Part shown: one piece after another, positions 48,887 through 63,193 of the stretch
Position numbering within the stretch: the first letter of the stretch is position 1
Layout of the letters: each line of letters opens with the position of its first letter
Source of the DNA: Natrinema salaciae
Lineage (GTDB): Archaea > Halobacteriota > Halobacteria > Halobacteriales > Natrialbaceae
Reading direction: 5' to 3'
DNA length: 64,000 nucleotides
Assembly: GCF_900110865.1 (NCBI RefSeq)
Contig: NZ_FOFD01000002.1
Coordinates: 62,001-126,000 of the forward strand
Made by a program: the position numbers and the translations under genes
Notes under the pieces: model-generated
Databases searched by the model: none
Told to the model about the DNA's origin: nothing
The model's input: the letters and a program-made list of their open reading frames with translations, nothing else

Positions 48887-49609
48887 CTACGCCTCCGGAA
48901 CTGACGACACGGACCGACGGTACCGTCGCAGGGTTTCGTCGTCCTCGTCGCGGAGTTCGACGATGAACTCCGTCTGGCCGACCACCTCCTCGAGTTCGTC
49001 CTCGCGGACGGAGAACTCGAACGGCGGCTCCTCGACGCGCGTGAGCCGACGGTTCCCGCTGGTTACGACGACGCTGTCGATCCCCTCGGACTCGGAGAGT
49101 TCACAGGAGACGACGCCATCCGACCGGGTACAGGAGAGATCCGGATCGACGTCCGAGTCCGAATCGCTCTCGAGTGGCGACTGGAAATCGAGCAGCATGG
49201 GGGAGATGGGGGCCGTCCCGAGGATCAGGACGATGGCCAGAAAGACGGAGAGATTGATCTTCGAGCCGTTCCGGGCGATCGTCCGCACCACCGGGTGCTC
49301 GGCGGTCCGTCGAAGCCGGATCACGAGCGGGACGATCACGGCGTGGGTCAACGGCCCCCAGAGGATGAGGACGAACCCGTAGGCCCTCGTGTACTTCAGA
49401 ATCGTCCAGTCGATACCGTAGGAGAGGACGAGACTCGAGGCCGACCAGCAGAAGAACCCGAAGAAGAGCAATCCGGCGCTCTTGAATAGCCGCCAGATCG
49501 GCGTGTTCGCGTAGTAGACGCTCAGCAAGTCCCGCCATGCCCGTCCGAGGAGGTACTTGATCGACTCGAGCGGCGATGCGGTCGCGTCGGCGTCGGAGTG
49601 TGATGGCAT
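48887..49609 (-). CDS. Membrane protein of the heme-copper cluster, with extracytoplasmic beta domain
   Basis: 240 residues. Three or four transmembrane helices (LLFFGFFCWSASSLVLSYGI, FVLILWGPLTHAVIVPLVIR, LSVFLAIVLILGTAPISPML) then an outer domain of about 90 residues with SCTRSDGVVSCELSESEGID and repeated beta strands, possibly an Ig-like fold with one disulfide. It starts 29 bases after subunit I in the same direction, so it is likely an accessory subunit or assembly factor of that enzyme. No characterised homologue recognised. Confidence 0.7.
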   Translation of the reverse strand: MPSHSDADATASPLESIKYLLGRAWRDLLSVYYANTPIWRLFKSAGLLFFGFFCWSASSLVLSYGIDWTILKYTRAYGFVLILWGPLTHAVIVPLVIRLRRTAEHPVVRTIARNGSKINLSVFLAIVLILGTAPISPMLLDFQSPLESDSDSDVDPDLSCTRSDGVVSCELSESEGIDSVVVTSGNRRLTRVEEPPFEFSVREDELEEVVGQTEFIVELRDEDDETLRRYRRSVSSVPEA

Positions 49610-49638
49610 GGGTAGTGATCAGTGAAGCGGGTGGTCGA

Positions 49639-51384
49639 TCAAGCGCCGATCGACCAGAGCTGGGTCAGCAGATACCAGTTCAGCAGATAGGTTATCGCGA
49701 ACGCAGCGAGGAAGACCAGACAGAGGACGAACGTGCCCCGCATTTCGTAGGCGTGGACGGGATCGTCCGGATCTTGAGCCATCCCGAGCCCACCGTCGGC
49801 GACGAGATCTGCGTTGTCGTCCCCGTTCTCGATCCGGTCGCCGAAGACGAGCGAGCCGACCGCCACGAGGACGAAGAGTACCCCGCCCGCGATCGCGAGG
49901 AGGGCGAAGATCCCGAAAATCGCGAACAGCGGCGCCGCAGCCGAGAGGCTGAACTCGGTGCCGGGGATGTTCTCGACGACCTCGGCGGTTCGGCGCGGGA
50001 CGCCGTAGAGAATGCCGACGTACATCATCATCAGGACGGCAATGCCCATCGCAGCCGAGTAGAAGAACGGCTGGATCGACGCGAGCCGTTCGGAGATGTA
50101 CTGGCGCATGAACATCGTCCGGATCACGAAGAAGACCAGACCCATGAACGCGACCGTCGTCCCGAGGACGACCGTTGCGTGGAAGTGACCGACCGTCGCG
50201 AACGTGTTGTGCCAGGTCATGTTGAGTTGGAGCTGTCCCATCATGACGCCCGTGATCCCCCCGAGGAATCCGAAGAGGATGATCGAGAAGATCGTCGATG
50301 AGAACACCGGGTTCGACCAGGGCGCGGACGTCAACCAGCCGAACAGGCCGCCGCCTTTCCCGCGCTTGCGCCGCCCGGCCTCGATCCCCGCTGGGATGGC
50401 GAACGCGTGGATCAGACTCGCGAAGGTCGCCCCGTAGAACGCGTACGACGTGTTCCAGAGCCGCCAGCCTGTCGACACTGCGGGGTCGGAGAGCAGGTGG
50501 TGTGCCGCCCCGAGGTTGATGAAAAAGAGATAGAGGATGAAAGCCGTTCGCGAGACCTTCTCGCTGACGACCTCCGCGCCGGCGACGACGTGGGTCAGGA
50601 AGTACCAGACCGCGATCATCGCCACGAGGTTGATCTGCTGGGTCCCGTGGCCGATGATCCAGTACATCTGGCGGTACCAGGCCGCGTCCCACCACTCGAT
50701 CATCTCGAGTCGCCAAAACAGGGTGGGGACGAAGGCGAACAGGCCGCCGACCAGCGCCTCGACGGCGATGATCGACGTGACGAACGCAGCGAAGCTGACG
50801 AGCGGGAGCGTCTTCCCCGGATTCTCGCGCTTCTCGTACCACATCGTGACGAAAAAGGGCAGCGCCGCGACGACGGTGCCCAGGATGAAGACGATCGCAC
50901 CCGCGTAGAACAGCGGTGAGACGGGCATCGGGACGTAGGCGGTCAACAGCGGTGCCTCGTTGGGTGGTTCGGTGGTCCAGATGGCGTAGTTGACCAGTAC
51001 GGCTCCCCCAACCATGACGGTCCATCCCGCCTTCGCGACCGTCGTGATCGGTAGCCGTCTGCCGAGCACCATCGGGCCGCCGACGTAGAGGATGGCGATC
51101 TCCATGAACACCATCCAGAAGATCAGCAGGTTCCACGCGTGCATGCTGAGGTGCGTGTAGAAGTCGGCGGGCTCGAGCAACCCGACCACTTCCCAGCGGG
51201 TCATCGCGACGGTAACGGCGAAGACGCCGCCGAACAGCAGGGCGACGACCGCCGTGAGTCCGAACAGTTTGACGAAGTTGTCGACGGAGCGGTGGACCTC
51301 GAGGCCCGTCACGGAACAGGTCCGGAACCCGTCGTCGCGATACTCGTTGTCGAACAGGCCGAGAACGTCGAGCGTGTGTGCCAT
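49639..51384 (-). CDS. Heme-copper oxidoreductase subunit I; probable NO reductase
   Basis: 581 residues, about 14 transmembrane helices. Heme and copper ligands: His in HLSMHAWNLLIFW (helix II), His246 in WIIGHGTQQINLV, His295-His296 in LGAAHHLLSD and His400/His402 in TVGHFHATVV. In oxygen reductases the residue four after His246 is the cross-linked Tyr (HPxVY); here Gln250 takes its place, and the usual Pro after His is Gly. Loss of the Tyr is characteristic of NO reductases of this superfamily. It is followed by a CuA subunit, and nirK is 5 kb away. Automatic annotation would call it cytochrome c oxidase. Confidence 0.8.
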   Translation of the reverse strand: MAHTLDVLGLFDNEYRDDGFRTCSVTGLEVHRSVDNFVKLFGLTAVVALLFGGVFAVTVAMTRWEVVGLLEPADFYTHLSMHAWNLLIFWMVFMEIAILYVGGPMVLGRRLPITTVAKAGWTVMVGGAVLVNYAIWTTEPPNEAPLLTAYVPMPVSPLFYAGAIVFILGTVVAALPFFVTMWYEKRENPGKTLPLVSFAAFVTSIIAVEALVGGLFAFVPTLFWRLEMIEWWDAAWYRQMYWIIGHGTQQINLVAMIAVWYFLTHVVAGAEVVSEKVSRTAFILYLFFINLGAAHHLLSDPAVSTGWRLWNTSYAFYGATFASLIHAFAIPAGIEAGRRKRGKGGGLFGWLTSAPWSNPVFSSTIFSIILFGFLGGITGVMMGQLQLNMTWHNTFATVGHFHATVVLGTTVAFMGLVFFVIRTMFMRQYISERLASIQPFFYSAAMGIAVLMMMYVGILYGVPRRTAEVVENIPGTEFSLSAAAPLFAIFGIFALLAIAGGVLFVLVAVGSLVFGDRIENGDDNADLVADGGLGMAQDPDDPVHAYEMRGTFVLCLVFLAAFAITYLLNWYLLTQLWSIGA

Positions 51385-51386
51385 CG

Positions 51387-51929
51387 TTATCCCTCCTCCA
51401 CGACGATCGTGCCGTGCATACTCCTGTGGCCCTGCCCGCAGAACTCGTTACAGATGATGTGGTAGGTCCCGGGTTCGTCGAAGGTCATCGGGACGACCCA
51501 CTCGTAGCCCGGCAGCACCTGCAGATTGATCTGTTTGCTGAGCGCATCCTCCGGCCGGAGGGAGAAGCCATGCTGGACGTCGAAAGAGTTCAGGTGAATG
51601 TCGTACTCCGTTCCTGTCTCGAGCACGACCGGCGCGCCATCCCACTGGAAGCGCATTGCCTGCAGGTACACGTCTCGATCCGGGGGGACGAGCCCGTCGT
51701 CGGTCTCGGTCGCCCGTTCCTTGTAGTCGTTTAGCTTGTCGCGGTACTCCTCACCCCCGATCCGGAACGTTTCGCCGATGGGATTCTGGTCGCCGATGCG
51801 CGTCCAGGCGCTCATCCAGCCGAAGAGGACGAGCGACCAGCCGACACCGAGCCCGAGCCAGATGGATTCGCGTCTGTTGACCGGTTGATTCCACCAGTTT
51901 CCGTCGGGGGGTTTGATCGGTGACGTCAT
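51387..51929 (-). CDS. Heme-copper oxidoreductase subunit II with CuA site
   Basis: 180 residues. One N-terminal transmembrane helix (ESIWLGLGVGWSLVLFGWMS) and an outer cupredoxin domain. The CuA ligands are in NSFDVQHGFSL and CNEFCGQGHRSMHG (two Cys, Glu backbone, His, Met), all intact. It would accept electrons from halocyanin and pass them to subunit I. It lies two bases before subunit I and five bases after the small subunit, so all are one operon. Confidence 0.9.
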   Translation of the reverse strand: MTSPIKPPDGNWWNQPVNRRESIWLGLGVGWSLVLFGWMSAWTRIGDQNPIGETFRIGGEEYRDKLNDYKERATETDDGLVPPDRDVYLQAMRFQWDGAPVVLETGTEYDIHLNSFDVQHGFSLRPEDALSKQINLQVLPGYEWVVPMTFDEPGTYHIICNEFCGQGHRSMHGTIVVEEG

Positions 51930-51933
51930 GGAA

Positions 51934-52083
51934 TCAGCCCAGTGGAACGGAGAACACGTCTATCCAACCCCACGCGACGTACGACAGGGCGAAGAACACC
52001 AGCGCTGCCGCCGCGAGCAACCAGATGCGGTCGTACAGTCGTTGCATCACCGGCGCCGATTCGCTCGAGGATGATTCAGCCAT
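51934..52083 (-). CDS. 49-residue single-span subunit of the heme-copper enzyme
   Basis: MAESSSSESAPVMQRLYDRI, one transmembrane helix (WLLAAAALVFFALSYVAWGW) and a short tail. First gene of the operon with the CuA subunit. Its size and topology resemble the small subunit IIa found with ba3-type oxidases, but there is too little sequence for assignment. A degenerate CGAACNNGTTCG-type site lies 48 bases upstream. Confidence 0.65.
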   Translation of the reverse strand: MAESSSSESAPVMQRLYDRIWLLAAAALVFFALSYVAWGWIDVFSVPLG

Positions 52084-52131
52084 CGTTTCGTTCAGTCGGG
52101 ACTCATTTTGATATCTGCATATCCGTTGTCC

Positions 52132-52143
52132 CGCACATATTCC
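52132..52143. promoter_or_regulatory. Degenerate operator-like site
   Basis: CGCACATATTCC matches CGAACATATTCG at 10 of 12 positions and is 48 bases before the small-subunit start. Weak on its own; reported because of its place before the enzyme operon. Confidence 0.3.
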
Positions 52144-52226
52144 CGTGAAACGTAGATCGCGCTGGGTCGAGTGGAGTCCCGTGGCTCGTCGGCCCGATCG
52201 AGCAAAACGAGGGGCAGTGGTCGGCG

Positions 52227-52898
52227 TCAGACCGCAGCGACGTACAGTTGGCCGACGCCGGCAACCACCAGTACGACGCCCGCGATGCGGACGACCCGTT
52301 CGACGTAGCCCGCGATACGACCGGCCCCGAGGGCGAACCCGAACGCCGTGGCGACCGTCATCGCGACCGTCAGGGTGCCGAACCCGAACGCGTACGTCCC
52401 CAGCACCAGCGCCGTCTCGAGCGGCGGCATACTGAGCGAGCGGAGCGCGAGCCCCAGAAACAGCGGCAGGACGCAGGCCGTCGCCGCGAGGGCGTACATC
52501 GCGCCGAAGAGGCCGAACCCCAGGACGGTCGAGCGCCGCTCGGGCAGGAGGACGTGGACGGCACCGCTCCCACCGAAGACCACCCACAGACCGAGTCCGA
52601 TCAGTGCGATGCCGACGCCGTACTCGAGCAGGGGCAGCGCTCGCCCGACCGTCTCGCCGGCCGCGATCGCGGCGAGCGACAGGACGCCGAGCACGGCCAT
52701 TGCGCCGGTGGCTGCCGCGAGTCCGCGGACGAGCGTTCCCGACAGCGGAGGTTTCGTCTCTTCACCGGTCGCGGCGACGTAGTACCCGACGTACCCCGGG
52801 AGCAGCGCGTACGCACACGGAGAAAAAAACGTGGCGACGCCGATGCCGAGGGCGAACAACATAGTGCCGAGCAGTCCGCCGCTCGCCACGTCACTCAC
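52227..52898 (-). CDS. ccdA: CcdA-family thiol/disulfide membrane transporter
   Basis: 223 residues, six transmembrane helices. The two reactive Cys are in FFSPCAYALLPGY and ATACVLPLFLG, positions typical of CcdA/DsbD. It carries reducing equivalents across the membrane, probably to the thioredoxin-like protein whose gene overlaps its start by eight bases, and on to the SCO or CuA cysteines. No c-type cytochrome gene is nearby, supporting a copper-site rather than a heme-maturation role. Confidence 0.85.
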   Translation of the reverse strand: MSDVASGGLLGTMLFALGIGVATFFSPCAYALLPGYVGYYVAATGEETKPPLSGTLVRGLAAATGAMAVLGVLSLAAIAAGETVGRALPLLEYGVGIALIGLGLWVVFGGSGAVHVLLPERRSTVLGFGLFGAMYALAATACVLPLFLGLALRSLSMPPLETALVLGTYAFGFGTLTVAMTVATAFGFALGAGRIAGYVERVVRIAGVVLVVAGVGQLYVAAV

Positions 52899-53421
52899 CC
52901 CGCGAAGCGTCGATCGCCGTTCGGATCTCGTCGGCGGATTTCGCCCCTCGACCGGACCAGGTCACGGCGTTCGTCTCGTCGAGGACGAACGCGTAGGGAA
53001 CGCCGGAGGCGTCGAGCGCCTCCGTCAACTCGAGGTCGGTGTCGAGGGCGACGGGCCAGTTCCCGTCGTGGTCGCGCCACCAGGTCGCGACGTCTTCACG
53101 GGTGACGGTATTCCCGACCGGCTCGCTCGTCGCCGAGACGAACTGTACGTCCCCGCCGACCTCGGCGTGGACGTCCGCGAGGGGCTCCATCATCCCCTCG
53201 CAAACGGTACACCAGGTGGCGAACAGTTCGACGAATGTCACCCGCCCGCGTTCGGGAACCATCGCAGTGCCGGCGTCGCTTCCCGGCGCGTCGATCGTCT
53301 CGAGTTCGATCGGTTCGATAGCCGTGTCGCTCTCGAGGGGGGTCCACTCGCCGATCGCGACCGCGCCGCCGCCGAGGACGGCGAGGCCGGCGGCACCCGC
53401 GAGTACCTCGCGACGGCGCAT
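52891..53421 (-). CDS. Exported thioredoxin-like protein (TlpA/ResA-like)
   Basis: 176 residues. An N-terminal hydrophobic stretch with a twin Arg start (MRRREVLAGAAGLAVLGGGA) anchors or exports it. Thioredoxin fold with active site FATWCTVCEGMM (CxxC), then VPYAFVLDE with the cis-Pro loop. It should reduce disulfides outside the cell, here most likely of SCO or the CuA subunit. Three bases after the SCO gene and overlapping ccdA. Confidence 0.85.
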   Translation of the reverse strand: MRRREVLAGAAGLAVLGGGAVAIGEWTPLESDTAIEPIELETIDAPGSDAGTAMVPERGRVTFVELFATWCTVCEGMMEPLADVHAEVGGDVQFVSATSEPVGNTVTREDVATWWRDHDGNWPVALDTDLELTEALDASGVPYAFVLDETNAVTWSGRGAKSADEIRTAIDASRGE

Positions 53422-53424
53422 GGG

Positions 53425-54174
53425 TTACCACCCCTCGACGACGGCACGTGCGTCCTCGACGATCTCGTTCCCGCCGGGGGAGCCACCGGTGTAGGCCCGC
53501 TCGACGCGCCCGTCCTTGTTGACGAGGAGGATCAACGACGTGTGGACGAAGTGGCGGGCGTGGTCGCCATCCTCGTCGTGGTCGTCCCCCATGCGACCAT
53601 CGTCCGACTCGTTACCCTGCTCGAACGCCACGCCGTACGTGTCTTCGACGATCGTCCTGGCGTCGTCCGGCGTCTCCGGCCGCAGGAAGTACCAGTTGCC
53701 AGGGTCGAAGTCCACCCCGAGCGTCTCGCCGTAGGACTCGAGGACCTCGGCGGTGTCGTACTCGGGGTCGAAAGTAAACGGGAGAAACGCGACCTCGTCC
53801 TCGTAGCCCCGCTCGGTCGCGTCGGCCTGGACGCGCCGTAGGGCCGCGGTTAGACCGGGGCAGACCGTCGTACAGCTGGTGTAGATGAACGTCAGCATCG
53901 AGTGACGCTCGCCGGCGAACTCCGTGGTCGTGACCGCCCGGTCGTGCAGCGGGGCCGGGACGGTCACCTCCGGTATCGATTCCCCGTAGATCGGGTGTGG
54001 GAGGTCCGCGTTCTCGATCCGATCGTGGTTCTCCGGCGGCGAGAGGACGAGTCCGTCGTCCGAGTCGTCGGTCCGATTCAGTTGCGAACACCCTGCGAGG
54101 GAGGCAGCGACGGTCGTCGCACCCGCCACACGCAAGAACGTCCGCCTGTCGAGGGGTACGTCTGTAGGGGTCAT
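53425..54174 (-). CDS. SCO1/SenC-family copper chaperone
   Basis: 249 residues. Tat lipoprotein signal DRRTFLRVAGATTVAASLAG then Cys. The copper-binding CxxxCP motif is YTSCTTVCPGLTAAL and the His ligand is in HFVHTSLILLVNKDG. An acidic insertion (DDGRMGDDHDEDGDHARH) precedes it. SCO proteins load or reduce the CuA site of subunit II. First of the SCO-thioredoxin-CcdA operon, with a CGAATATGTTCG site 69 bases upstream. Confidence 0.9.
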   Translation of the reverse strand: MTPTDVPLDRRTFLRVAGATTVAASLAGCSQLNRTDDSDDGLVLSPPENHDRIENADLPHPIYGESIPEVTVPAPLHDRAVTTTEFAGERHSMLTFIYTSCTTVCPGLTAALRRVQADATERGYEDEVAFLPFTFDPEYDTAEVLESYGETLGVDFDPGNWYFLRPETPDDARTIVEDTYGVAFEQGNESDDGRMGDDHDEDGDHARHFVHTSLILLVNKDGRVERAYTGGSPGGNEIVEDARAVVEGW

Positions 54175-54243
54175 CGTCTCGTCGAGAGATCGGCGCTGTA
54201 CGAGCTAAAGCGATCTTTGGATTCCCATCCGCTTAGAAATCAT

Positions 54244-54255
54244 CGAATATGTTCG
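54244..54255. promoter_or_regulatory. CGAATATGTTCG operator-like site
   Basis: Perfect palindromic member of the island's motif family, 69 bases before the SCO start, leaving room for a TATA box and a short leader. The same 12-mer occurs at 58480-58491. Confidence 0.5.
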
Positions 54256-54319
54256 GTACGATCTCCGGTGTTCGACGCCGGTGAGCCGATTCGAGCCGCG
54301 TCGTCGCGACCGCCACTTT

Positions 54320-54907
54320 TCACGGCCCGGCCTCGAGGACGGGGCGGCTTTCCTCGTTGAAGAGGGTTATCGCCTTGGCGACCTGCGACGGCAGCTCTGA
54401 CTGCGGTTCCGTCATCGCGGGTTCCGAATCGGGATCGGGCCAGCCGACGACGACGCGGCCGACGTTCCCGGCGACTTCGTGGGACGTACAGACCTGCTGG
54501 GTGTCGACGTAATCGTAGACACCCTCGCTGTCGAAGGTGTGTTCGTAGGCCGAGCCCACGCCGGTGAGCCGGTCGCTTCCCCAGGGCTCGGTACCCTCGG
54601 GGGATCGGTGAGGGCCGTGACCGTCGGCGTGGTACGCGGTGACGTCGTGGCGCCCCGTCTCGACGAGCCACTCGACGGTACCGCCCGGGACGATGTGTAC
54701 GATTTGGGGCTCGAACTCCGGATACGGCCGCGAGTTCGCCGTAACGGTGATTCCCTCGGCAGGGGTGCCCAGCTCCCCGGCGTCCTCGGGCGGCGTTTCC
54801 TCCCCGTCGCTCGAGCGACCGGGGATATCGTCGAGACAGCCCGCGAGTGCGAGGCCGATCGCACAGGCGGACGACCGAAGCGCAGCACGGCGGGAGATGG
54901 GTGTCAT
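54320..54907 (-). CDS. Halocyanin-like blue copper protein with altered axial position
   Basis: 195 residues. Signal SRRAALRSSACAIGLALAGC (Tat, lipobox). Cupredoxin domain with His in TGRHDVTAYH, and Cys and His in DTQQVCTSHEVAGNVGRVVV. In halocyanins the fifth residue after that His is the axial Met; here it is Asn. The fold and the other three ligands are intact, so copper binding is expected but with a changed potential or geometry. It probably supplies electrons to NirK and the CuA enzyme. The C-terminal 25 residues extend past the domain. Confidence 0.85.
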   Translation of the reverse strand: MTPISRRAALRSSACAIGLALAGCLDDIPGRSSDGEETPPEDAGELGTPAEGITVTANSRPYPEFEPQIVHIVPGGTVEWLVETGRHDVTAYHADGHGPHRSPEGTEPWGSDRLTGVGSAYEHTFDSEGVYDYVDTQQVCTSHEVAGNVGRVVVGWPDPDSEPAMTEPQSELPSQVAKAITLFNEESRPVLEAGP

Positions 54908-55062
54908 GATTTTAGTCGTGACGGGGTCGGGAGACGATTCACTCGCCATCGAGTTCGACGAGGTTGGCAGTGCCGGCTGGATCGGGTCGTGATCCTCACG
55001 AATGTCTCTGTGGGGACACTGGTTCAATGGAAACGATGATTCTCGGTCGGTGGATGTGCGAC

Positions 55063-55089
55063 TGTACGTGTTCGGACGGGCGTATAAAA
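55063..55089 (+). promoter_or_regulatory. Orphan promoter: motif plus TATA box
   Basis: TGTACGTGTTCG (9 of 12 to the consensus) followed eight bases later by a strong TATAAAA. This spacing equals that of the island's other promoters and predicts a rightward transcript from about 55113. No convincing gene lies to the right: the transcript would run antisense into the 3' end of the CtaA-CtaB gene. Confidence 0.4.
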
Positions 55090-55174
55090 GGGACGTCGCT
55101 GCACTCTCGGGCGGCGTTACGCACGACCGGGACGTCAGTGCGGCGAAAGACGGCACCGTGCGCTCGCGGCCCGG

Positions 55175-56632
55175 TCAGGCGGCGACGACGAGCGTCTCGA
55201 GGACGATCGCGAGGAGGATCGCCCCGAGGTAGTAGTTCGAGACGTAGAACGAGCGGAGCGCGACCTCGTCCGTCGGTGTGCGGTACTGACTGATCACCGA
55301 CCGCAGGAAGACGCTACCCAGAGCGATGGACGTGACCGCGTAGACCCAGCCCAGCCCGGCAACCCAACCGAGAACGCTCGCGGCCAGCAACGTCGCACCC
55401 AGATAGAACGCGACGTGTCGACGTGCCGCCGGGACGCCTTCGACGACGGGGTACATCGGAAAGCCGCCGCGCGCGTAATCGTCGCGAAATGCGATCGCGA
55501 GGCTGTAGAAATGCGCGGGCGTCCACAGGAAGATCACCGCTGCGAGTGCGAGCCCGGGCGCGCCGACGGTTCCGGTGACGGCAGCCCACCCGATAACTGC
55601 GGGGAGTGCTCCAGCACCGCCGCCGAGAACTGTGTTCCAGGCAGTGTTGGGTTTCAGCAGGACCGTGTAGAGGACGGCGTAGTAGACGATCGCCGCGAAG
55701 GTAAGCGCCGCCGCCAGCGCGTTCACCCACGTCACGAGTACCAGCATCGACGTCGCCACGAGTGCGACCCCGAACACGATGGCGTTCCGGGCCGGGACGA
55801 TGTCGTGAACCAGCGGCCGGCCGTTCGTTCGGTTCATCCGCCGATCGCGGTCGCGCTCGTGGACGTGATTGAACGTTCCGCTCGCGCCGATGGCGAGGAC
55901 GCCACCGGCGAGGGTGGCGATCGCAGTCGTCGGTTCGAGCGACGCGCCGGTAAGCGTCGCCAGTCCCATCCCGGCGAGTGCGACGAGGCAGAGCAGCCAC
56001 ATCAACCGCGGTTTGGTGAGCGTCAGGTACGCGCCGGCCGTCCGCCGGAGACGGGCGAACGACCCGTTCGGCCGCTCGCTCGAGATCGTCGTCTCCCCGG
56101 GATCGTCGTCGCCGGTCGCCGAAACGGGTTCCGACCGGTCCCCCGCGATCGAGAGCGCTGCGTTCCCACCCGGTGCCGCTTCCTCGCGTGGGTGGTCCTC
56201 GAGCGTTCGGACGAGCGCGACGAGGAGGCAGGCGAAGATGAGCATCGCGAGTGCGAGATGAACCGTACTCGCGATGGCGGGGCTCCCGACGAGAATAGCG
56301 GCTCCGATCACGATCTGGACGGGGAAGAGAACGACGACGCAGCCGACGAGCCGGGCCACGCGGCGATCGACTGCGGTTCGCCTGACGGCGAGTCCGGACG
56401 CGGCGACGAGGGCGCCGGTGACGAGGGCCGCGACACGGTGGCCCCAGAAGAGCAGCACCTCGCCAGTCAGCGAGCCGAGGCCCGAATCGGACGAACACGT
56501 CAGTAAAGTCGAACAGTTCGCTGCACTATCGGTCGTCGAGACCGCAGTCCCGAGTGCGACGAGAACGTACGCTGCGACGGTCGTCGTTGCGAGCAGGTCT
56601 GCAAATCGTCGTCGGTTTGTAACAGCTCTCAT
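55175..56632 (-). CDS. ctaB: Fused CtaA-like and CtaB heme O synthase
   Basis: 485 residues. Residues 1-150 have four transmembrane helices resembling half of heme A synthase CtaA/COX15 (WGHRVAALVTGALVAASGLA with a conserved His; STVHLALAMLIFACLL with another). A disordered linker leads to CtaB, protoheme farnesyltransferase, with NHVHERDRDRRMNRTNGRPL and the second Asp-rich DDYARGGFPM. Heme O is made by the CtaB half; whether the half-size CtaA part oxidises it to heme A is unknown. Upstream lies a CGAAC-N5-GTTCG repeat. Confidence 0.88.
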   Translation of the reverse strand: MRAVTNRRRFADLLATTTVAAYVLVALGTAVSTTDSAANCSTLLTCSSDSGLGSLTGEVLLFWGHRVAALVTGALVAASGLAVRRTAVDRRVARLVGCVVVLFPVQIVIGAAILVGSPAIASTVHLALAMLIFACLLVALVRTLEDHPREEAAPGGNAALSIAGDRSEPVSATGDDDPGETTISSERPNGSFARLRRTAGAYLTLTKPRLMWLLCLVALAGMGLATLTGASLEPTTAIATLAGGVLAIGASGTFNHVHERDRDRRMNRTNGRPLVHDIVPARNAIVFGVALVATSMLVLVTWVNALAAALTFAAIVYYAVLYTVLLKPNTAWNTVLGGGAGALPAVIGWAAVTGTVGAPGLALAAVIFLWTPAHFYSLAIAFRDDYARGGFPMYPVVEGVPAARRHVAFYLGATLLAASVLGWVAGLGWVYAVTSIALGSVFLRSVISQYRTPTDEVALRSFYVSNYYLGAILLAIVLETLVVAA

Positions 56633-56722: not shown

Positions 56723-56986
56723 CTAGTCACGCCAGATGACGGTCACGACGTCGTCGTCGCGCTCGATCGTCTCGTAGCGGTACCCGCGATCGTCCAGTTT
56801 CGGGAACAAAAACTGGGGAACGCGATCGTTGCGCTGGACTAGGACCGTGTCGTCGGGCAGTTCGACGAGCAACTCGAGGGTCTGCTGGAGGGGGTTCGGC
56901 GGCCCGAGCGATCGCACGTCGAGGGTCTCCTGCGATCGATCGCTCGGTGCATCGGTGCGGTCGACGACAGTGACGGGTGACGACAT
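56723..56986 (-). CDS. DUF2249 protein 1
   Basis: 87 residues. LDVRSLGPPNPLQQTLELLV followed by ELPDDTVLVQRNDRVPQFLF and a C-terminal GYRYETIERDD strand is the DUF2249 pattern, a small alpha/beta domain related to SirA/TusA folds but without the Cys. DUF2249 genes recur in denitrification and NO-stress neighbourhoods. It has its own motif site 38 bases upstream, so it is probably transcribed separately from its two paralogues. Confidence 0.8.
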   Translation of the reverse strand: MSSPVTVVDRTDAPSDRSQETLDVRSLGPPNPLQQTLELLVELPDDTVLVQRNDRVPQFLFPKLDDRGYRYETIERDDDVVTVIWRD

Positions 56987-57024
56987 GCGTGCTGATTCGG
57001 CTCCTCGGTAGCTATCTTTCGTCC

Positions 57025-57036
57025 CGTACGTGTTCG
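57025..57036. promoter_or_regulatory. CGTACGTGTTCG operator-like site
   Basis: One of five sites at a nearly constant distance from the start codon (38 bases here, before DUF2249 protein 1). One half-site has a single mismatch. Confidence 0.5.
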
Positions 57037-57085
57037 GTTGTAGTCCGGCTGTGCGAGGAGCGACGAGGCGTACTCGTCCTCGACG

Positions 57086-57319
57086 CTACGCGTCCACTTT
57101 CGGGAACGTTGCGACGAACTCGTCGGGAGCGACCTGTTCGACCTCGTAGCCGTCGGCGTCGAAGCTGTCGACCTCGGCTTCGAACTCGTAGAACAGCGGT
57201 TTGGGTTCGTGGTCGTTGACGATGGTCAGCGTCTCACCCGGCTCGAGGGCCTCGAACTCGTCGTGGATGGTCGGGTGGCGATTCACCGGCGGGATGTCCC
57301 TGACGTCGAGTCGTGTCAT
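57086..57319 (-). CDS. DUF2249 protein 2
   Basis: 77 residues from MTRLDVRDIPPVNRHP; a Met 11 codons earlier would overlap the promoter. HDEFEALEPGETLTIVNDHE then PKPLFYEFEAEVD is close to the DUF2249 consensus (PxPL motif after the ND/HEP turn). A binding role for a small ligand or a partner metalloprotein is possible; no catalytic residues are evident. Motif site 40 bases upstream. Confidence 0.82.
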   Translation of the reverse strand: MTRLDVRDIPPVNRHPTIHDEFEALEPGETLTIVNDHEPKPLFYEFEAEVDSFDADGYEVEQVAPDEFVATFPKVDA

Positions 57320-57359
57320 GCAGTTCGAGTTCGGGATGGGCGCTGCATGCACGTTTGGG

Positions 57360-57371
57360 CGAACGTATTCG
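57360..57371. promoter_or_regulatory. CGAACGTATTCG operator-like site
   Basis: Perfect palindrome 40 bases before the start of DUF2249 protein 2. Confidence 0.55.
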
Positions 57372-57395
57372 GGTGGTGACCGATCGACTCCTCGA

Positions 57396-57623
57396 TTACG
57401 TCTGTTCGATGCGCACGTGCCAGACGCCGCCGTCGCGCTCCTCGCTCTCGTGGACGAACCCGCGGTCGTCGAGAACGTCGTAGAGCGGCTCCGGTTCGAA
57501 CGGGGCGATCAGCCGCAGTCGTTGCTCGGCTCTCAGGTCCTCGAGCGCGGCCACGATGAGGTCGAACGGCGGACCGTCGATCTCCCTGACGTCGAGGGTT
57601 CGTTCCGTCGTTTCGGTTGCCAT
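57396..57623 (-). CDS. DUF2249 protein 3
   Basis: 75 residues. TLDVREIDGPPFDLIVAALE and RLRLIAPFEPEPLYDVLDDR match the family; the C-terminal strand is GGVWHVRIEQT. Divergently transcribed from the HTH regulator across a 135-base region that holds two perfect motif sites, one for each direction. The three DUF2249 proteins differ enough to be old paralogues. Confidence 0.82.
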   Translation of the reverse strand: MATETTERTLDVREIDGPPFDLIVAALEDLRAEQRLRLIAPFEPEPLYDVLDDRGFVHESEERDGGVWHVRIEQT

Positions 57624-57708: not shown

Positions 57709-57720
57709 CGAACATATTCG
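57709..57720. promoter_or_regulatory. CGAACATATTCG operator-like site
   Basis: Perfect palindrome 38 bases before the HTH regulator ATG (rightward). A second, partial copy, GGAACACGTTCG at 57746-57757, touches the start codon and could give negative feedback. Confidence 0.6.
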
Positions 57721-57758: not shown

Positions 57759-58433
57759 ATGGCCCAAGCGACTCTTACCCTCACGATGCCCGAGGAGGTC
57801 TGGATTCAGCAGATATCGACGGACTATCCCGAGTCTACCTTCCGGGTGCTCGCGGCCGTCCCCGGTTCCGAGACCGGCTTCGCCCTCGTCCGAATCGCCG
57901 GCTCGGCGGTCCCCGAGGTGGTCGAAGCCATGGACGATCACCCCCAGCTCACCGAACTCTCGCTGGCACAGTGGAGCGACAACGAGGCGACGGTCCACTT
58001 CGAGACGACCGCACCCCTCCTGATGTTCTCCTCTCGGGAGTCGGGGATGCCGATCGAACTCCCGGTCGAAATCCGGGACGGCGAGGCGACGATCGAGGTC
58101 ACCGGCTCCCGGGAACGGCTCGCCGAACTCGCCGAACAGCTCGAGCACTTCGGACTGCAGTACCGGATCGAACACGTCCGCGAGCGCCTCCACGAGAGCC
58201 AGCTACTCTCGGAGCGCCAGCTCGAGGTGATCGCCGCGGCGGTCGAAGAGGGGTATTACGACACCCCGCGACGATCCTCGCTAACCGAACTGGCCGACCA
58301 CCTCGGCATCGCGAAATCGACCTGTAGCGAGACCCTCCATCGGGCCGAGGAGGCGATCGTCAAGCGATTCGTCGAGGACCTGCCGAACATCGACAACGAC
58401 GAACCGCTCGAAGAGCAGCTCGCGAGCACCTGA
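57759..58433 (+). CDS. Bat-type HTH_10 transcription regulator (DmsR/NarO-like)
   Basis: 224 residues. The N-terminal 150 residues form a Bat-type regulatory domain (WIQQISTDYPESTFRVLAAV). The C-terminal HTH_10 is LSERQLEVIAAAVEEGYYDT then LTELADHLGIAKSTCSETLH. Haloarchaeal regulators of DMSO and nitrate respiration (DmsR, NarO) have this HTH; a Cys-rich sensor like that reported for NarO is absent. Its place among genes sharing one motif, and sites on its own promoter, suggest that it binds CGAACNNGTTCG, by inference. Confidence 0.85.
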   Translation: MAQATLTLTMPEEVWIQQISTDYPESTFRVLAAVPGSETGFALVRIAGSAVPEVVEAMDDHPQLTELSLAQWSDNEATVHFETTAPLLMFSSRESGMPIELPVEIRDGEATIEVTGSRERLAELAEQLEHFGLQYRIEHVRERLHESQLLSERQLEVIAAAVEEGYYDTPRRSSLTELADHLGIAKSTCSETLHRAEEAIVKRFVEDLPNIDNDEPLEEQLAST

Positions 58434-58479: not shown

Positions 58480-58491
58480 CGAATATGTTCG
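58480..58491. promoter_or_regulatory. CGAATATGTTCG operator-like site
   Basis: Same 12-mer as at 54244-54255. It is 153 bases before the Fe-S protein start, implying a leader of about 115 bases if the usual site-to-TATA-to-start spacing holds. Confidence 0.5.
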
Positions 58492-58644: not shown

Positions 58645-60318
58645 ATGAGTACGGACGACGAATCATTCCACCCGCTCGGCGAGGAGTGGGAAGACGAACT
58701 CGAGACGATGCTCGACGATACCGAGTACGACAGCGATCTCGGTATGGAAATGGCTCAGGACGCGATGCGGGTCACCAAGGGCGAGCTCTCCGAGGCCGAA
58801 TTCCACGAGCGCTATCACGAGGACGTGATGGAGGAGTTCGGCGAGGACGAGCGCCCGACCAAAGAGGCCTACGAGGCAGCCCAGGAGGAGGCCAAGGGAA
58901 CCGCCTCCAGGATGCTCGACGCCTTCGACGGCGACGGCGAGGAGACCCGCCGCGAGACGATGAAGAAGATGGGCGTCGGCGCGGCGGCCGTCGGGATGGG
59001 TGCGTTTGGCACCGTTTCGGACGGTCCCGAGCAGAGCCTCACCGCGGCCGAAGGTGGTCACGGGCCCCGCCAGGAGACGACCGAGGAACGCGACCTCCAG
59101 TGGGGGATGACGATCGACCTCGAGCGCTGTGACGGCTGTCTCTCGTGTATGAAGGCCTGTTCCGATGAGAACGACCTCGACGCGGGGGTCAACTGGATGT
59201 ACGTCATGGCCTGGGAGGACGAGCTCAACCACTCCCCCGAGGGCGGCGCCGGTGTGCCTGAGTCCGGTGGGTATACCGACTTCAACATGGGGAGCGACTT
59301 CAACATGCTCGTGCGGCCGTGCCAGCACTGCACGGACGCACCCTGTGAGAAGGTCTGTCCGACCACAGCACGTCACACCCGCGACAAGGACGGGCTGGTG
59401 CTGACCGACTACGACGTCTGTATCGGGTGTCGGTACTGCCAGGTCGCCTGTCCCTACGGCGTCAACTACTTCCAGTGGGACGAACCCGACGTGGCGTACG
59501 AGGACATCGACGGTCTCGAAGACCCCGAGAACCCGGATCAGATCACGCACGCCGAGTACGAATACGGGAAACGGTGGGTCGACAGCCGCGCCCCCCGCGG
59601 CACGATGAGCAAGTGTACCATGTGTCCGTCCATGCAGGACGGTAAACAGGGCGAGGAGAAAGTCGGGACGACGGCGTGTGAAAGCGCCTGTCCGCCGGAC
59701 GCGATTCAGTTCGGCAACGTCAAAGACGAGAAAAGCGATCCGTCGCAGCACCGCGAGCACCCGAGCAAGAGTCGCGCGATCGTCCACCTGACGAACGGGA
59801 CGGAAAGCAGCAAATCCGCACCGTCGGCGGACGCCATCGACAGCGCTCTCAGCGACGGCGACGACCTCGAGACCGCGATCGGGAACGTCGAAGGCCTCGA
59901 TGAGGACATCCTCGCGGTCATGAAGGCGATCGAAATCGTCAGCGAGGGGACCGAGCCCGGCGACGAAGAGAACAACACGATTCTCAGTAGCGAACAGGAC
60001 ATCATCGCCGCCGTCGAAGCCTTCGAACAGTACGTCGACCTCGAGAGCGAGGAGGCCCTCGACGAACTGCAACTCGGCGACGGAAGCGAACAGCAGGCGC
60101 AGTTCCGACTCCACCAGTACACGGGCAAGCCGTCCTCGTTCCAGCTGCTCGAGGACATCGGGACGAACCCGAACGTCACGTACCTCGGGCAGGAGCCCGG
60201 ACCGGAGGCCCAACAGGTCCCCGGTCCGACCAAGTACGAGGACATGGAACTGCTCGATAAGCGGCAGGAGTACCTCGACGAGGAGACCGTCGGTCGCGTC
60301 GACGGGGTGTCGCTATGA
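58645..60318 (+). CDS. Fe-S subunit of a membrane redox complex (PsrB/HybA-like) with N-terminal extension
   Basis: 557 residues. Four [4Fe-4S] Cys clusters: CDGCLSCMKAC (from residue 162), CQHCTDAPCEKVC, CIGCRYCQVAC and CTMCP with ACESACPPDA. A twin-arginine-like segment RRETMKKMGVGAAAVGMGAF begins at residue 102, after a 100-residue acidic helical domain, instead of at the N-terminus. About 170 acidic residues follow the clusters. It partners the NrfD-like subunit encoded four bases downstream (ATGA overlap). No molybdopterin subunit is encoded nearby. Confidence 0.88.
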   Translation: MSTDDESFHPLGEEWEDELETMLDDTEYDSDLGMEMAQDAMRVTKGELSEAEFHERYHEDVMEEFGEDERPTKEAYEAAQEEAKGTASRMLDAFDGDGEETRRETMKKMGVGAAAVGMGAFGTVSDGPEQSLTAAEGGHGPRQETTEERDLQWGMTIDLERCDGCLSCMKACSDENDLDAGVNWMYVMAWEDELNHSPEGGAGVPESGGYTDFNMGSDFNMLVRPCQHCTDAPCEKVCPTTARHTRDKDGLVLTDYDVCIGCRYCQVACPYGVNYFQWDEPDVAYEDIDGLEDPENPDQITHAEYEYGKRWVDSRAPRGTMSKCTMCPSMQDGKQGEEKVGTTACESACPPDAIQFGNVKDEKSDPSQHREHPSKSRAIVHLTNGTESSKSAPSADAIDSALSDGDDLETAIGNVEGLDEDILAVMKAIEIVSEGTEPGDEENNTILSSEQDIIAAVEAFEQYVDLESEEALDELQLGDGSEQQAQFRLHQYTGKPSSFQLLEDIGTNPNVTYLGQEPGPEAQQVPGPTKYEDMELLDKRQEYLDEETVGRVDGVSL

Positions 60319-61667
60319 GCACCAAGACGCCGACGGAGGAGGACATCCTCCGCCCGATCAACACGCTCACGAAGAAGTACTTCATCCTGTACGGCGCGGC
60401 TGCACTGGGCCTCGTCGCGTTCCTCGTCGCCTGGGCCTACCAGCTCCAGAAAGGCCTGATCGTCACCGGCCTCGGCGACTGGGGCAGCGGTGGCGGTTCG
60501 ACGTGGGGGCTGTACATCGGCGCGTTCATCTGGTGGGTCGGCGTCGCTCACGGCGGCATCATCCTCTCGGCCGCCGTCCGCCTGCTCAATATGGACCGGT
60601 ACATGCCGGTCGCCCGGCTCGCGGAGATGACGACGATCGGCGGCCTCTCAGCCGCCGGCTTCTACATTCTGGTCCACATGGGCCGTCCGGACCGGATGGT
60701 CACGAGCGTCATCGGCCACTACCACATCACGGTCAACAACTCGCCGCTGGTGTGGGACGTGACCGTCATCACGGCGTACTTCGTGCTGTCGGCGACCTAT
60801 CTCGGCCTGACGCTACGCTACGACGTCAACCGCCTGCGAGACGATCTGCCGGACATGTTCGAGCCGGTCTACAAGGTGATGACGATCGGCTACACGGAGA
60901 AAGAAGATCAGGTCATCGATCGGATGGTCTGGTGGCTCGCCGCCGCAGTCATCATCATGGCCCCGCTCTTGCTCCACGGCGGCGTGATCCCGTGGCTGTT
61001 CGCGCTCCTGCCGGCGATGCCCGGCTGGACCGGTGCGATTCAGGGACCGATGTTCCTCAGTATCGCCCTGATGTCGGCGATCAGTGGCATAATGATCATC
61101 TCCTACGCGTTCCGTCGTGCCTACGATTGGGACCACATCATCACCGACGACATCTTCCGCGGGCTGCTCCTGTGGCTCGGGTTCTTCACCCTGTTGTTCC
61201 TGTGGTTCCAGCTTCAGACGATCATCAACGGCGTCTTCCTCGGACCGACCAACAAGGCGGTCGCGATCGAGGCGAAGATCGCCCACCCCGTCTACCAAGT
61301 TGCGATGGCGATGATCTTCGGCACGCTCGTGTACATCTTCCTGCAGGGGATCCGTCCGGCCCTGTTCAGCAAGAAGCGAGCGCTCGTCGCCAGCAGCATC
61401 ATCCTCATGGGGACCCTGACCGAAAAGATCCTGTTCGTCGTCGAAGGATTCCTGCACCCGACGTTCGACATCTACGCCAATACGCCCGGGACCTACTTCC
61501 CGAGCGCGATCGAGTGGCTCTCGCTCGTTGGGACGGTCGGATTGGTGGCACTTTTATTCCTCAACCTCTCGAAGCTCGTCCCGGTGGTCGAACTCCACGC
61601 GATCGAACACCTGCGCGGCGACCACGAGCACAGTGAGGAAGCGACCGAACCGGAGGTGGAAGCATGA
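60315..61667 (+). CDS. NrfD/PsrC-family membrane quinol-oxidising subunit
   Basis: 450 residues, nine or ten transmembrane helices. WGLYIGAFIWWVGVAHGGII and FYILVHMGRPDRMVTSVIGH are typical NrfD/PsrC helices; the latter bears residues near the quinone pocket. It exchanges electrons between menaquinone and the Fe-S subunit. The ATG overlaps the upstream stop and its stop overlaps the next ATG, so the three genes form a tight operon. No cytochrome subunit is present, unlike alternative complex III. Confidence 0.88.
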   Translation: MSTKTPTEEDILRPINTLTKKYFILYGAAALGLVAFLVAWAYQLQKGLIVTGLGDWGSGGGSTWGLYIGAFIWWVGVAHGGIILSAAVRLLNMDRYMPVARLAEMTTIGGLSAAGFYILVHMGRPDRMVTSVIGHYHITVNNSPLVWDVTVITAYFVLSATYLGLTLRYDVNRLRDDLPDMFEPVYKVMTIGYTEKEDQVIDRMVWWLAAAVIIMAPLLLHGGVIPWLFALLPAMPGWTGAIQGPMFLSIALMSAISGIMIISYAFRRAYDWDHIITDDIFRGLLLWLGFFTLLFLWFQLQTIINGVFLGPTNKAVAIEAKIAHPVYQVAMAMIFGTLVYIFLQGIRPALFSKKRALVASSIILMGTLTEKILFVVEGFLHPTFDIYANTPGTYFPSAIEWLSLVGTVGLVALLFLNLSKLVPVVELHAIEHLRGDHEHSEEATEPEVEA

Positions 61668-61975
61668 GTTCAGCACTGACAACCATTCCGTTGGAACTAC
61701 TCTACCACGGCTACGACGGTACCACCGGCTTCACCGGCTTCGCCAACGAGGGGACCTGGATCATCTTCGCCGTCATTCTGGTCCCGGTCTACATCATGCT
61801 CGCGGCCTGGTTCCTCGGTGAACCCCGCGACACGAAGTCCGGACTGCTCGGTGTGAGCTACCTCGTCGGCCTGACGACGTCGATGTGGGTCGGGATGTTC
61901 GTTCTGACAGTCCTGATCGGCATCGTCTTCTACGGTGGCCCGCCGGAGCCGATCAGCAGCGTCGGCCCGCCGTAA
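61664..61975 (+). CDS. Small membrane subunit of the Fe-S/NrfD module
   Basis: 103 residues with two or three transmembrane helices (WIIFAVILVPVYIMLAAWFL and LLGVSYLVGLTTSMWVGMFV). Coupled to the NrfD gene by ATGA overlap, so probably a third subunit. No motif or family recognised. Confidence 0.7.
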   Translation: MSSALTTIPLELLYHGYDGTTGFTGFANEGTWIIFAVILVPVYIMLAAWFLGEPRDTKSGLLGVSYLVGLTTSMWVGMFVLTVLIGIVFYGGPPEPISSVGPP

Positions 61976-62101: not shown

Positions 62102-63193
62102 ATGAGTCTCACAGAACACGAACTCGAAATCAAACTCGAGGAGGTCGAGGACCCGGACATCGGCGAGGACATCGTCTCGCTGGGACTGGTCAACGACGTC
62201 ACGATCGACGACAAGACGGCCCGGATCTCGCTCGCGTTCAACGCGCCGTACGCCCCCTCGGAGCTCGAGCTCGGCAACCGGATCCGCGACGTCATCGAGG
62301 ACGCCGGTCTCGAGGCCGACCTCCGGGCACACGTCGGCGAGGAGCACGGCTTCGACGACGAGGTTCTCCCGCGAGTTCGCAACGTAATCGCCGTTTCCTC
62401 GGGGAAAGGCGGCGTCGGCAAGACGACGGTCGCGGCGAACCTCGCGGCCGGCCTCGAGAAACGCGGTGCGATGGTCGGCCTGCTCGACGCCGACATCCAC
62501 GGCCCCAACGTCCCGCAGATCCTCCCCCCCGAGAGCGATCCCGGCGTCACGCCGAACGAAGAGATCGTCCCGCCCCGCTCGGACGGCGTTCGCATCATCA
62601 GCATGGGCATGATGATGGAAGAAGACGACGATCCCGCCATCCTCCGCGGTCCGATGGTCAACAAGTTCATGATGAAGTTCCTCGAGGGCGTCGAGTGGGG
62701 TCGTCTGGACTACCTCATCGTCGACCTGCCGCCGGGGACCGGTGACGCGACGTTGAACCTGCTGCAGTCGATGCCGGTGACGGGGTCGGTCGTCGTCACG
62801 ACGCCCCAGGAGATGGCCCTGGACGACACCCGGAAGGGGATTCAGATGTTCAACAAACACGACACGCCGGTACTCGGCGTCGTCGAGAACATGAGTTCCT
62901 TCATCTGTCCGTCCTGTGGCGACCAGCACGGGCTGTTCGGGACCAGCGGTGCGGACTCCATCGTCGACAAGTACGACGTGCCGCTGCTGGGTCGGATTCC
63001 GATCCACCCCGACTTCGGGGCCGACGGCAGCCAGGGCGCGCTCGTCAAGGACGACGACAGCGAGGTCCAGAGCCACCTCGAGGACGTCGTCGGCGAGGTC
63101 GCCGACCGGATCGGCGAGCAAAACCGACGGACGGTCTCGGAGAACGTCACGCACGAACCGGCGAACAAGCTGCCGACCGAGACGGAAGACTGA
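62102..63193 (+). CDS. Mrp/NBP35-family Fe-S carrier ATPase
   Basis: 363 residues. N-terminal MIP18/DUF59 domain (VEDPDIGEDIVSLGLVNDVT), then the deviant Walker A AVSSGKGGVGKTTVAANLAA, LLDADIHGPNVPQIL and IVDLPPGTGDATLNL. The Cys pair that holds the transferable cluster is in SFICPSCGDQHG. It loads [4Fe-4S] clusters on target proteins; the many-cluster Fe-S subunit upstream would be one client, though the gene is housekeeping in archaea. Separate promoter. Confidence 0.93.
   Translation: MSLTEHELEIKLEEVEDPDIGEDIVSLGLVNDVTIDDKTARISLAFNAPYAPSELELGNRIRDVIEDAGLEADLRAHVGEEHGFDDEVLPRVRNVIAVSSGKGGVGKTTVAANLAAGLEKRGAMVGLLDADIHGPNVPQILPPESDPGVTPNEEIVPPRSDGVRIISMGMMMEEDDDPAILRGPMVNKFMMKFLEGVEWGRLDYLIVDLPPGTGDATLNLLQSMPVTGSVVVTTPQEMALDDTRKGIQMFNKHDTPVLGVVENMSSFICPSCGDQHGLFGTSGADSIVDKYDVPLLGRIPIHPDFGADGSQGALVKDDDSEVQSHLEDVVGEVADRIGEQNRRTVSENVTHEPANKLPTETED

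Follow-up and report, generated by a model that had tools for sequence, protein, structure and literature searches.

Within the window, by which we mean the whole 64,000-nucleotide stretch of Natrinema salaciae DNA analysed here, three overlapping genes encode a four-cluster Fe-S protein, an NrfD-type quinol subunit, and a small membrane protein (Table 1). A preliminary description of this DNA had proposed this arrangement, and it is borne out by the open reading frames (ORFs), the domain matches, and the conserved cysteines: all three ORFs lie on the plus strand, and each overlaps the next by 4 bp. With an NrfD-family membrane subunit and a four-cluster Fe-S subunit encoded together, the locus belongs to the class of Fe-S/NrfD dimeric redox modules. 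The full unit is a conserved four-gene operon, in which the genes for the Fe-S protein, NrfD, and the two-helix protein are followed by one for an Mrp/NBP35-type Fe-S carrier. This fourth gene stands downstream of the module in nearly all loci, and an HTH_10 regulator is conserved upstream in Natrialbaceae loci; the preliminary description had overlooked both. The Mrp/NBP35-type ATPase is presumed to be the Fe-S cluster carrier for the operon. The 103-aa two-helix protein has no match in Pfam or NCBIfam, and its gene is kept after NrfD in all lineages and relatives compared.

Table 1. Features of the module and of its surroundings in the window (nucleotide positions are those of the window; aa, residues of the Fe-S subunit)
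Feature	Position	Strand	Remarks
Halocyanin domain protein of the NOR-like/CuA cluster	54320..55156	-	PF00127; TIGR03102 below cut-off
Palindrome CGAACATATTCG	57709..57720	.	Upstream of the HTH_10 regulator
HTH_10 (bacterio-opsin-activator type) regulator	57759..58433	+	PF04967
Palindrome CGAATATGTTCG	58480..58491	.	165 bp before the Fe-S start
Fe-S subunit	58645..60318	+	557 aa; Ferredoxin_N (PF16947) and 4Fe-4S dicluster domains
Ferredoxin_N domain of the Fe-S subunit	aa 9-73		
Tat-like signal TRRETMKKMGVGAAAVG inside the Fe-S subunit, from aa 101	58945..59013	+	R102-R103, KK, hydrophobic stretch
Four-cluster ferredoxin domain of the Fe-S subunit	aa 152-357		16 Cys
NrfD-type quinol subunit	60315..61667	+	450 aa; PF03916, E 4.5e-22
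Small two-helix membrane protein	61664..61975	+	103 aa; two predicted transmembrane helices
Mrp/NBP35-type P-loop ATPase	62102..63193	+	PF10609, E 3e-89

On the minus strand, window positions 48887-56632 hold a NOR-like/CuA cluster with a NOR-like subunit, a CuA subunit, CcdA-like, TlpA-like, and SCO1 proteins, a halocyanin, and a fused heme A/heme O synthase (55175-56632). The NOR-like heme-copper subunit (49639-51384) is without the oxidase HPEVY motif and reads GHGTQQ. Between this cluster and the operon's regulator lie three DUF2249-type genes in a row (56723-57581, minus strand), a trio conserved in many Natrinema loci; the third (57396-57581) is a Pfam-confirmed DUF2249. The shared promoter element of the preliminary description exists as the palindrome CGAAYRTRTTCG, found at 54244, 57360, 57709, and 58480. 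In 13 of 20 Natrialbaceae loci it precedes the Fe-S start by 165-167 bp, and the copy at 58480..58491 is a presumed operator.

The window's genome also has a second module copy, which is split between L033:8374-9987 (minus strand) and L032:9718-11037 (plus strand); the Fe-S2 gene stands alone at C1:768.7 kb and NrfD2 alone at C3:67721-69049. In the lone Fe-S2 protein one cluster cysteine is replaced by aspartate (CxxD), and its neighbourhood, comprising isopropylmalate synthase and a 65- to 73-aa membrane protein, is common to L028 and L030. The NrfD gene of the main module appears as two pieces in Natrinema limicola (L017:11686-13013) and in G135 (G135:C20:153231-154558), which may be the same genome; G135 also has a whole second NrfD copy, and petB is absent from it. 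Another divergent set of Fe-S, NrfD, small-protein, and Mrp genes without a molybdopterin subunit occurs in G078 (L152:5515-9803, minus strand), which keeps petB; this set groups with a MopB-linked NrfD (L153).

Across 16 module copies from seven families, neither the 16 cluster cysteines of the Fe-S subunit nor its twin arginine R102-R103 varies, and both arginines are invariant in an alignment of 17 Fe-S proteins. The C-terminal part of the protein is variable and acidic. The internal Tat-like signal predicts, at the level of sequence, that the Fe-S domain would be exported to the outer side. The Ferredoxin_N-like domain may serve as a Tat-escort or maturation domain. It also occurs on its own, as a 77-aa ORF that immediately precedes a molybdopterin gene (L153:3591-3824, plus strand) and as proteins of about 85 to 96 aa in other genera. 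In a profile search against the PDB, the best match of the Fe-S subunit was the Fe-S half of ActB from alternative complex III (ACIII) (6lod_B 674-913, E 1e-33), with ArrB (6cz7), the Fe-S subunit of arsenate reductase, a close second. A search of the module against NCBIfam gave DsrO and DsrP as the best matches, below threshold. Predicted structures were too poor to use (mean pLDDT of 52 for NrfD and 42 for the Fe-S subunit).

For the NrfD profile, the sole relatives in the PDB were ACIII subunits C of four species (E 2e-25 to 5e-21). The alignment of the module NrfD with ActC covers 410-430 residues, and identity of the NrfD to bacterial ActC is about 22%; the module Fe-S subunit aligns with B2, the Fe-S half of ActB. 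We took the list of ActC quinol-pocket residues from PMC5928083 and found H139, D169, W82, I86, F89, and L166 kept in the module NrfD as H121, D148, W64, I68, F71, and L145, respectively. D253, the third charged residue of the quinol site, corresponds to L228, and Pro136 and Val250 are also not identical. The subunit is an ActC-like NrfD with quinol-site residues, including the histidine and one aspartate of the three charged positions. The cytoplasmic half-channel of ActC is mostly kept, and the outer proton half-channel mostly is not. We rejected a direct archaeal ACIII, since ActA, ActE, ActD, ActF, and the B1 domain are all missing. The module Fe-S protein corresponds to the B2-like part only, without a fused degenerate MopB-like (B1) domain, and in all loci inspected the operon is without heme c subunits, including multiheme ActA and monoheme ActE, without ActF, and without a recognisable adjacent ActD (DUF3341), whereas bacterial ActC clusters found by similarity carry the full ActA-F set. 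ACIII is a functional stand-in for bc1, and in Chloroflexus it acts as a menaquinol:auracyanin oxidoreductase, reducing a blue copper protein (PMC3150298 and its reference 34).

A small tree of NrfD sequences places the haloarchaeal clade with bacterial ActC (support 92). Within it, the module clade (support 71) is nested in a haloarchaeal group (support 100); the remaining members of this group come mostly from arsenate-reductase-like molybdenum operons. Known Fe-S/NrfD dimeric modules hand electrons to heme proteins (NrfB, DsrJ). Modules of the NrfCD/DsrOP type resemble the operon in having a four-cluster Fe-S protein with its own Tat-like signal together with an NrfD, encoded without a catalytic subunit; they differ from it in that the carrier linked to the haloarchaeal module is halocyanin and that the module has an extra Ferredoxin_N domain, the two-helix protein, and Mrp. 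There is precedent for Fe-S/NrfD pairs that work by themselves with soluble partners in the periplasm (PMC6303296).

About one third of haloarchaea, mainly Natrialbales, are without petABC (complex III), and the path of their electrons is a published open question (PMC8305020). We therefore compared the distribution of the module with that of petB, a comparison the preliminary description had proposed, in 391 genomes of the order, scoring the module by the NrfD profile A1 (E <=1e-100) and petB by PF00033 (E <=1e-36). The two proved complementary: 96 genomes have only the module, 249 only petB, 33 both, and 13 neither. Among the 106 Natrialbaceae genomes the corresponding counts are 84, 11, 11, and 0, so that all petB-less genomes have the module and all module-less genomes have petB. 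The two also swap within one genus-level group, f2 g28 (module only in six genomes, petB only in five, both in one). Absence of petB is seen in single-contig genomes as well (e.g., G015, G067, G088, and G034), and the window's genome, including the operon, has no cytochrome b (PF00033) of a bc or b6f complex. A looser search of 155 genomes left 32 without any bc-type cytochrome b, and 30 of these carry the module; no heme-copper oxidase was found in the other two (G024 and G079). Most of the remaining petB-less, module-less genomes retain a Nar-type cytochrome b, and G308 is an assembly that is 91% complete. The petABD cytochrome b/Rieske complex has the same presumed reaction, from menaquinol to halocyanin (PMC8305020), but has no sequence relation to the module, and each replaces the other across genomes. 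Since many haloarchaea are without complex III and nearly all of these have the module, the module is probably a replacement.

Because relatedness among haloarchaea inflates the raw association, we built an rpoB′ tree of 79 genomes and used it to compare two-trait models, one independent and one dependent. The fit was better for the dependent model (LR 22.8, 4 df, p 1.4e-4), with a p-value that is indicative only, since the tree is based on one marker gene and has long branches (G006 and G111) and the genomes were hand-picked to include contrasts. The fitted rate of module loss was 12.7 with petB present and at the lower bound (about zero) without petB. When petB was treated as loss-only, 10 of the 14 inferred losses fell on module-bearing lineages.

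A halocyanin gene adjoins the Fe-S gene in 6 of 19 module loci, representing four families; it is directly upstream on the same strand in L046, L059, L060, and L061 and divergent in L047 and L049. RefSeq annotation of the Natrononativus copy agrees with this adjacency. Given the nine halocyanin-like domains of the window's genome, chance adjacency would be well below 1% per locus, as a rough estimate with a gene number assumed from the size of the genome. This genome also encodes six COX2 subunits, each of which carries the CuA motif, and therefore needs a one-electron donor despite the absence of a bc-type cytochrome b. Quinol oxidases are not known to have the CuA motif. The halocyanin of the NOR-like/CuA cluster is a possible electron acceptor of the module in this genome. 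G006 (L047) has the module and a divergent halocyanin gene, and no heme-copper oxidase was found in it; the acceptor can therefore differ.

On comparative genomic grounds, we consider it likely that the operon encodes a menaquinol:halocyanin oxidoreductase that takes over from complex III in haloarchaea where the cytochrome b/Rieske complex has been lost. The preliminary description had suggested that the module may be a quinol:halocyanin oxidoreductase that takes the place of a bc1-type complex in NO or nitrite reduction. The first part of this reading is supported by the complementarity with petB, the tree test, the adjacency of halocyanin, the CuA acceptors in a genome without bc cytochrome b, and the homology to ActC, which oxidises quinol in ACIII; NO or nitrite reduction as its specific role is not supported.

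In the mechanism we infer, NrfD would bind and oxidise menaquinol near the outer membrane face, as its ActC-like site residues suggest. Electrons would enter the exported Fe-S subunit at its proximal cluster, move along its four clusters, and leave one at a time to a lipid-anchored halocyanin. Reduced halocyanin would then feed heme-copper oxidases through their CuA subunits, as well as NOR-like enzymes in genomes that have them. The two-helix protein would be a membrane companion of NrfD, and Mrp would load the Fe-S clusters; any proton translocation would likewise be putative. In the 33 genomes with both systems, the module may have a narrower role.

These same 33 genomes would also fit an alternative in which petB-less haloarchaea respire directly through terminal oxidases of the quinol type and the module serves, for example, as a halocyanin:quinone reductase for another donor or in redox balancing. 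Direct quinol oxidases were proposed for natronoarchaea, in which no complex III or alternative homologues were found (Sorokin et al. 2018, PMC6176080). We regard this alternative as unlikely, given that every COX2 subunit of the window's genome bears the CuA motif and that the module is almost never absent where petB is absent and an oxidase is present.

The preliminary description had noted that no molybdopterin, hydrogenase, or cytochrome subunit accompanies the module. We found none beside it in the window or in the named Natrialbaceae loci, nor in a further 19 module loci that we fetched from seven families for inspection of neighbours; the operon is without the MopB catalytic subunit of a CISM enzyme. 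The module could instead form the quinol side of a molybdenum enzyme, with the gene for the catalytic subunit at another place in the genome, a reading we hold to be somewhat less probable still than direct quinol oxidases. It would fit the nearest NrfD paralogues (38-46% identical), which are mostly in molybdenum-enzyme (MopB) operons, including arsenate-reductase-like ones (L149, L048, and L151), the RefSeq label of the module NrfD, "molybdoenzyme membrane anchor subunit," and the presence in the window's genome of NarGH without a bc- or Nar-type cytochrome b. However, a search for an orphan partner in this genome found just four molybdopterin proteins. These are NarG, which comes with NarH, the assimilatory NasA, and two formate-dehydrogenase-like proteins, and none is an obvious orphan lacking Fe-S/NrfD partners. 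NarGH as an obligate partner was rejected, since Natrinema altunense and N. versiforme, reported to be without NarG/NarH (PMC8400030), carry the module (L011 and L021). Furthermore, none of the 19 module loci has an adjacent MopB gene, whereas all close MopB paralogues have theirs adjacent, and half of a molybdenum enzyme would not predict complementarity with petB. The NarG-NarH-NarJ-like genes of the window's genome (L037:8355-13955, plus strand) have no accompanying cytochrome b, and there is no PF00033 match genome-wide.

That the module serves specifically to supply electrons for NO or nitrite reduction, as a partner of the adjacent NOR-like/CuA cluster, is very improbable: the cluster adjoins it in the window, L010, L011, and L022, and the palindrome is common to the upstream regions of the module, regulator, DUF2249, and SCO1 genes, but these few Natrinema loci are the only ones with the cluster beside the module, which occurs in nearly all Natrialbaceae and in other families without a NOR-like cluster nearby. 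The cluster was thus rejected on synteny as an obligate partner, and the module is unlikely to act in NO or nitrite reduction alone. In strains with the NOR-like cluster beside the operon, the shared palindrome suggests common regulation.

The closest NrfD paralogues of the presumed menaquinol:halocyanin oxidoreductase belong to haloarchaeal ArrABC-type enzymes (e.g., on a Natronorubrum bangense plasmid), which also have a small membrane protein after NrfD. Unlike the module, those enzymes keep an adjacent molybdopterin subunit and a TorD chaperone. The simplest history we infer is loss of the molybdopterin subunit from an arsenate-reductase-like enzyme. Tentatively, and with somewhat more doubt than confidence, we suggest that an ArrABC-type enzyme minus its catalytic subunit became an archaeal complex III analogue. 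This would be a second, heme-free CISM route parallel to ACIII and, in most Natrialbaceae as well as several other lineages that have abandoned the bc complex, the main link from quinol to halocyanin. In the open-licence literature, which leaves most subscription journals and preprints outside, we found no earlier report on a haloarchaeal NrfD/halocyanin system or a haloarchaeal alternative complex III. For the gap named in 2021 (PMC8305020), the operon offers a specific candidate that has both a signature across genomes and, in halocyanin, a partner that can be tested. If the proposal is true, two corrections would follow, one to the annotation as a molybdoenzyme membrane anchor subunit and one to the view that natronoarchaea are without an alternative complex III homologue (PMC6176080), and the operon would encode a heme-free, pterin-free analogue of complex III.
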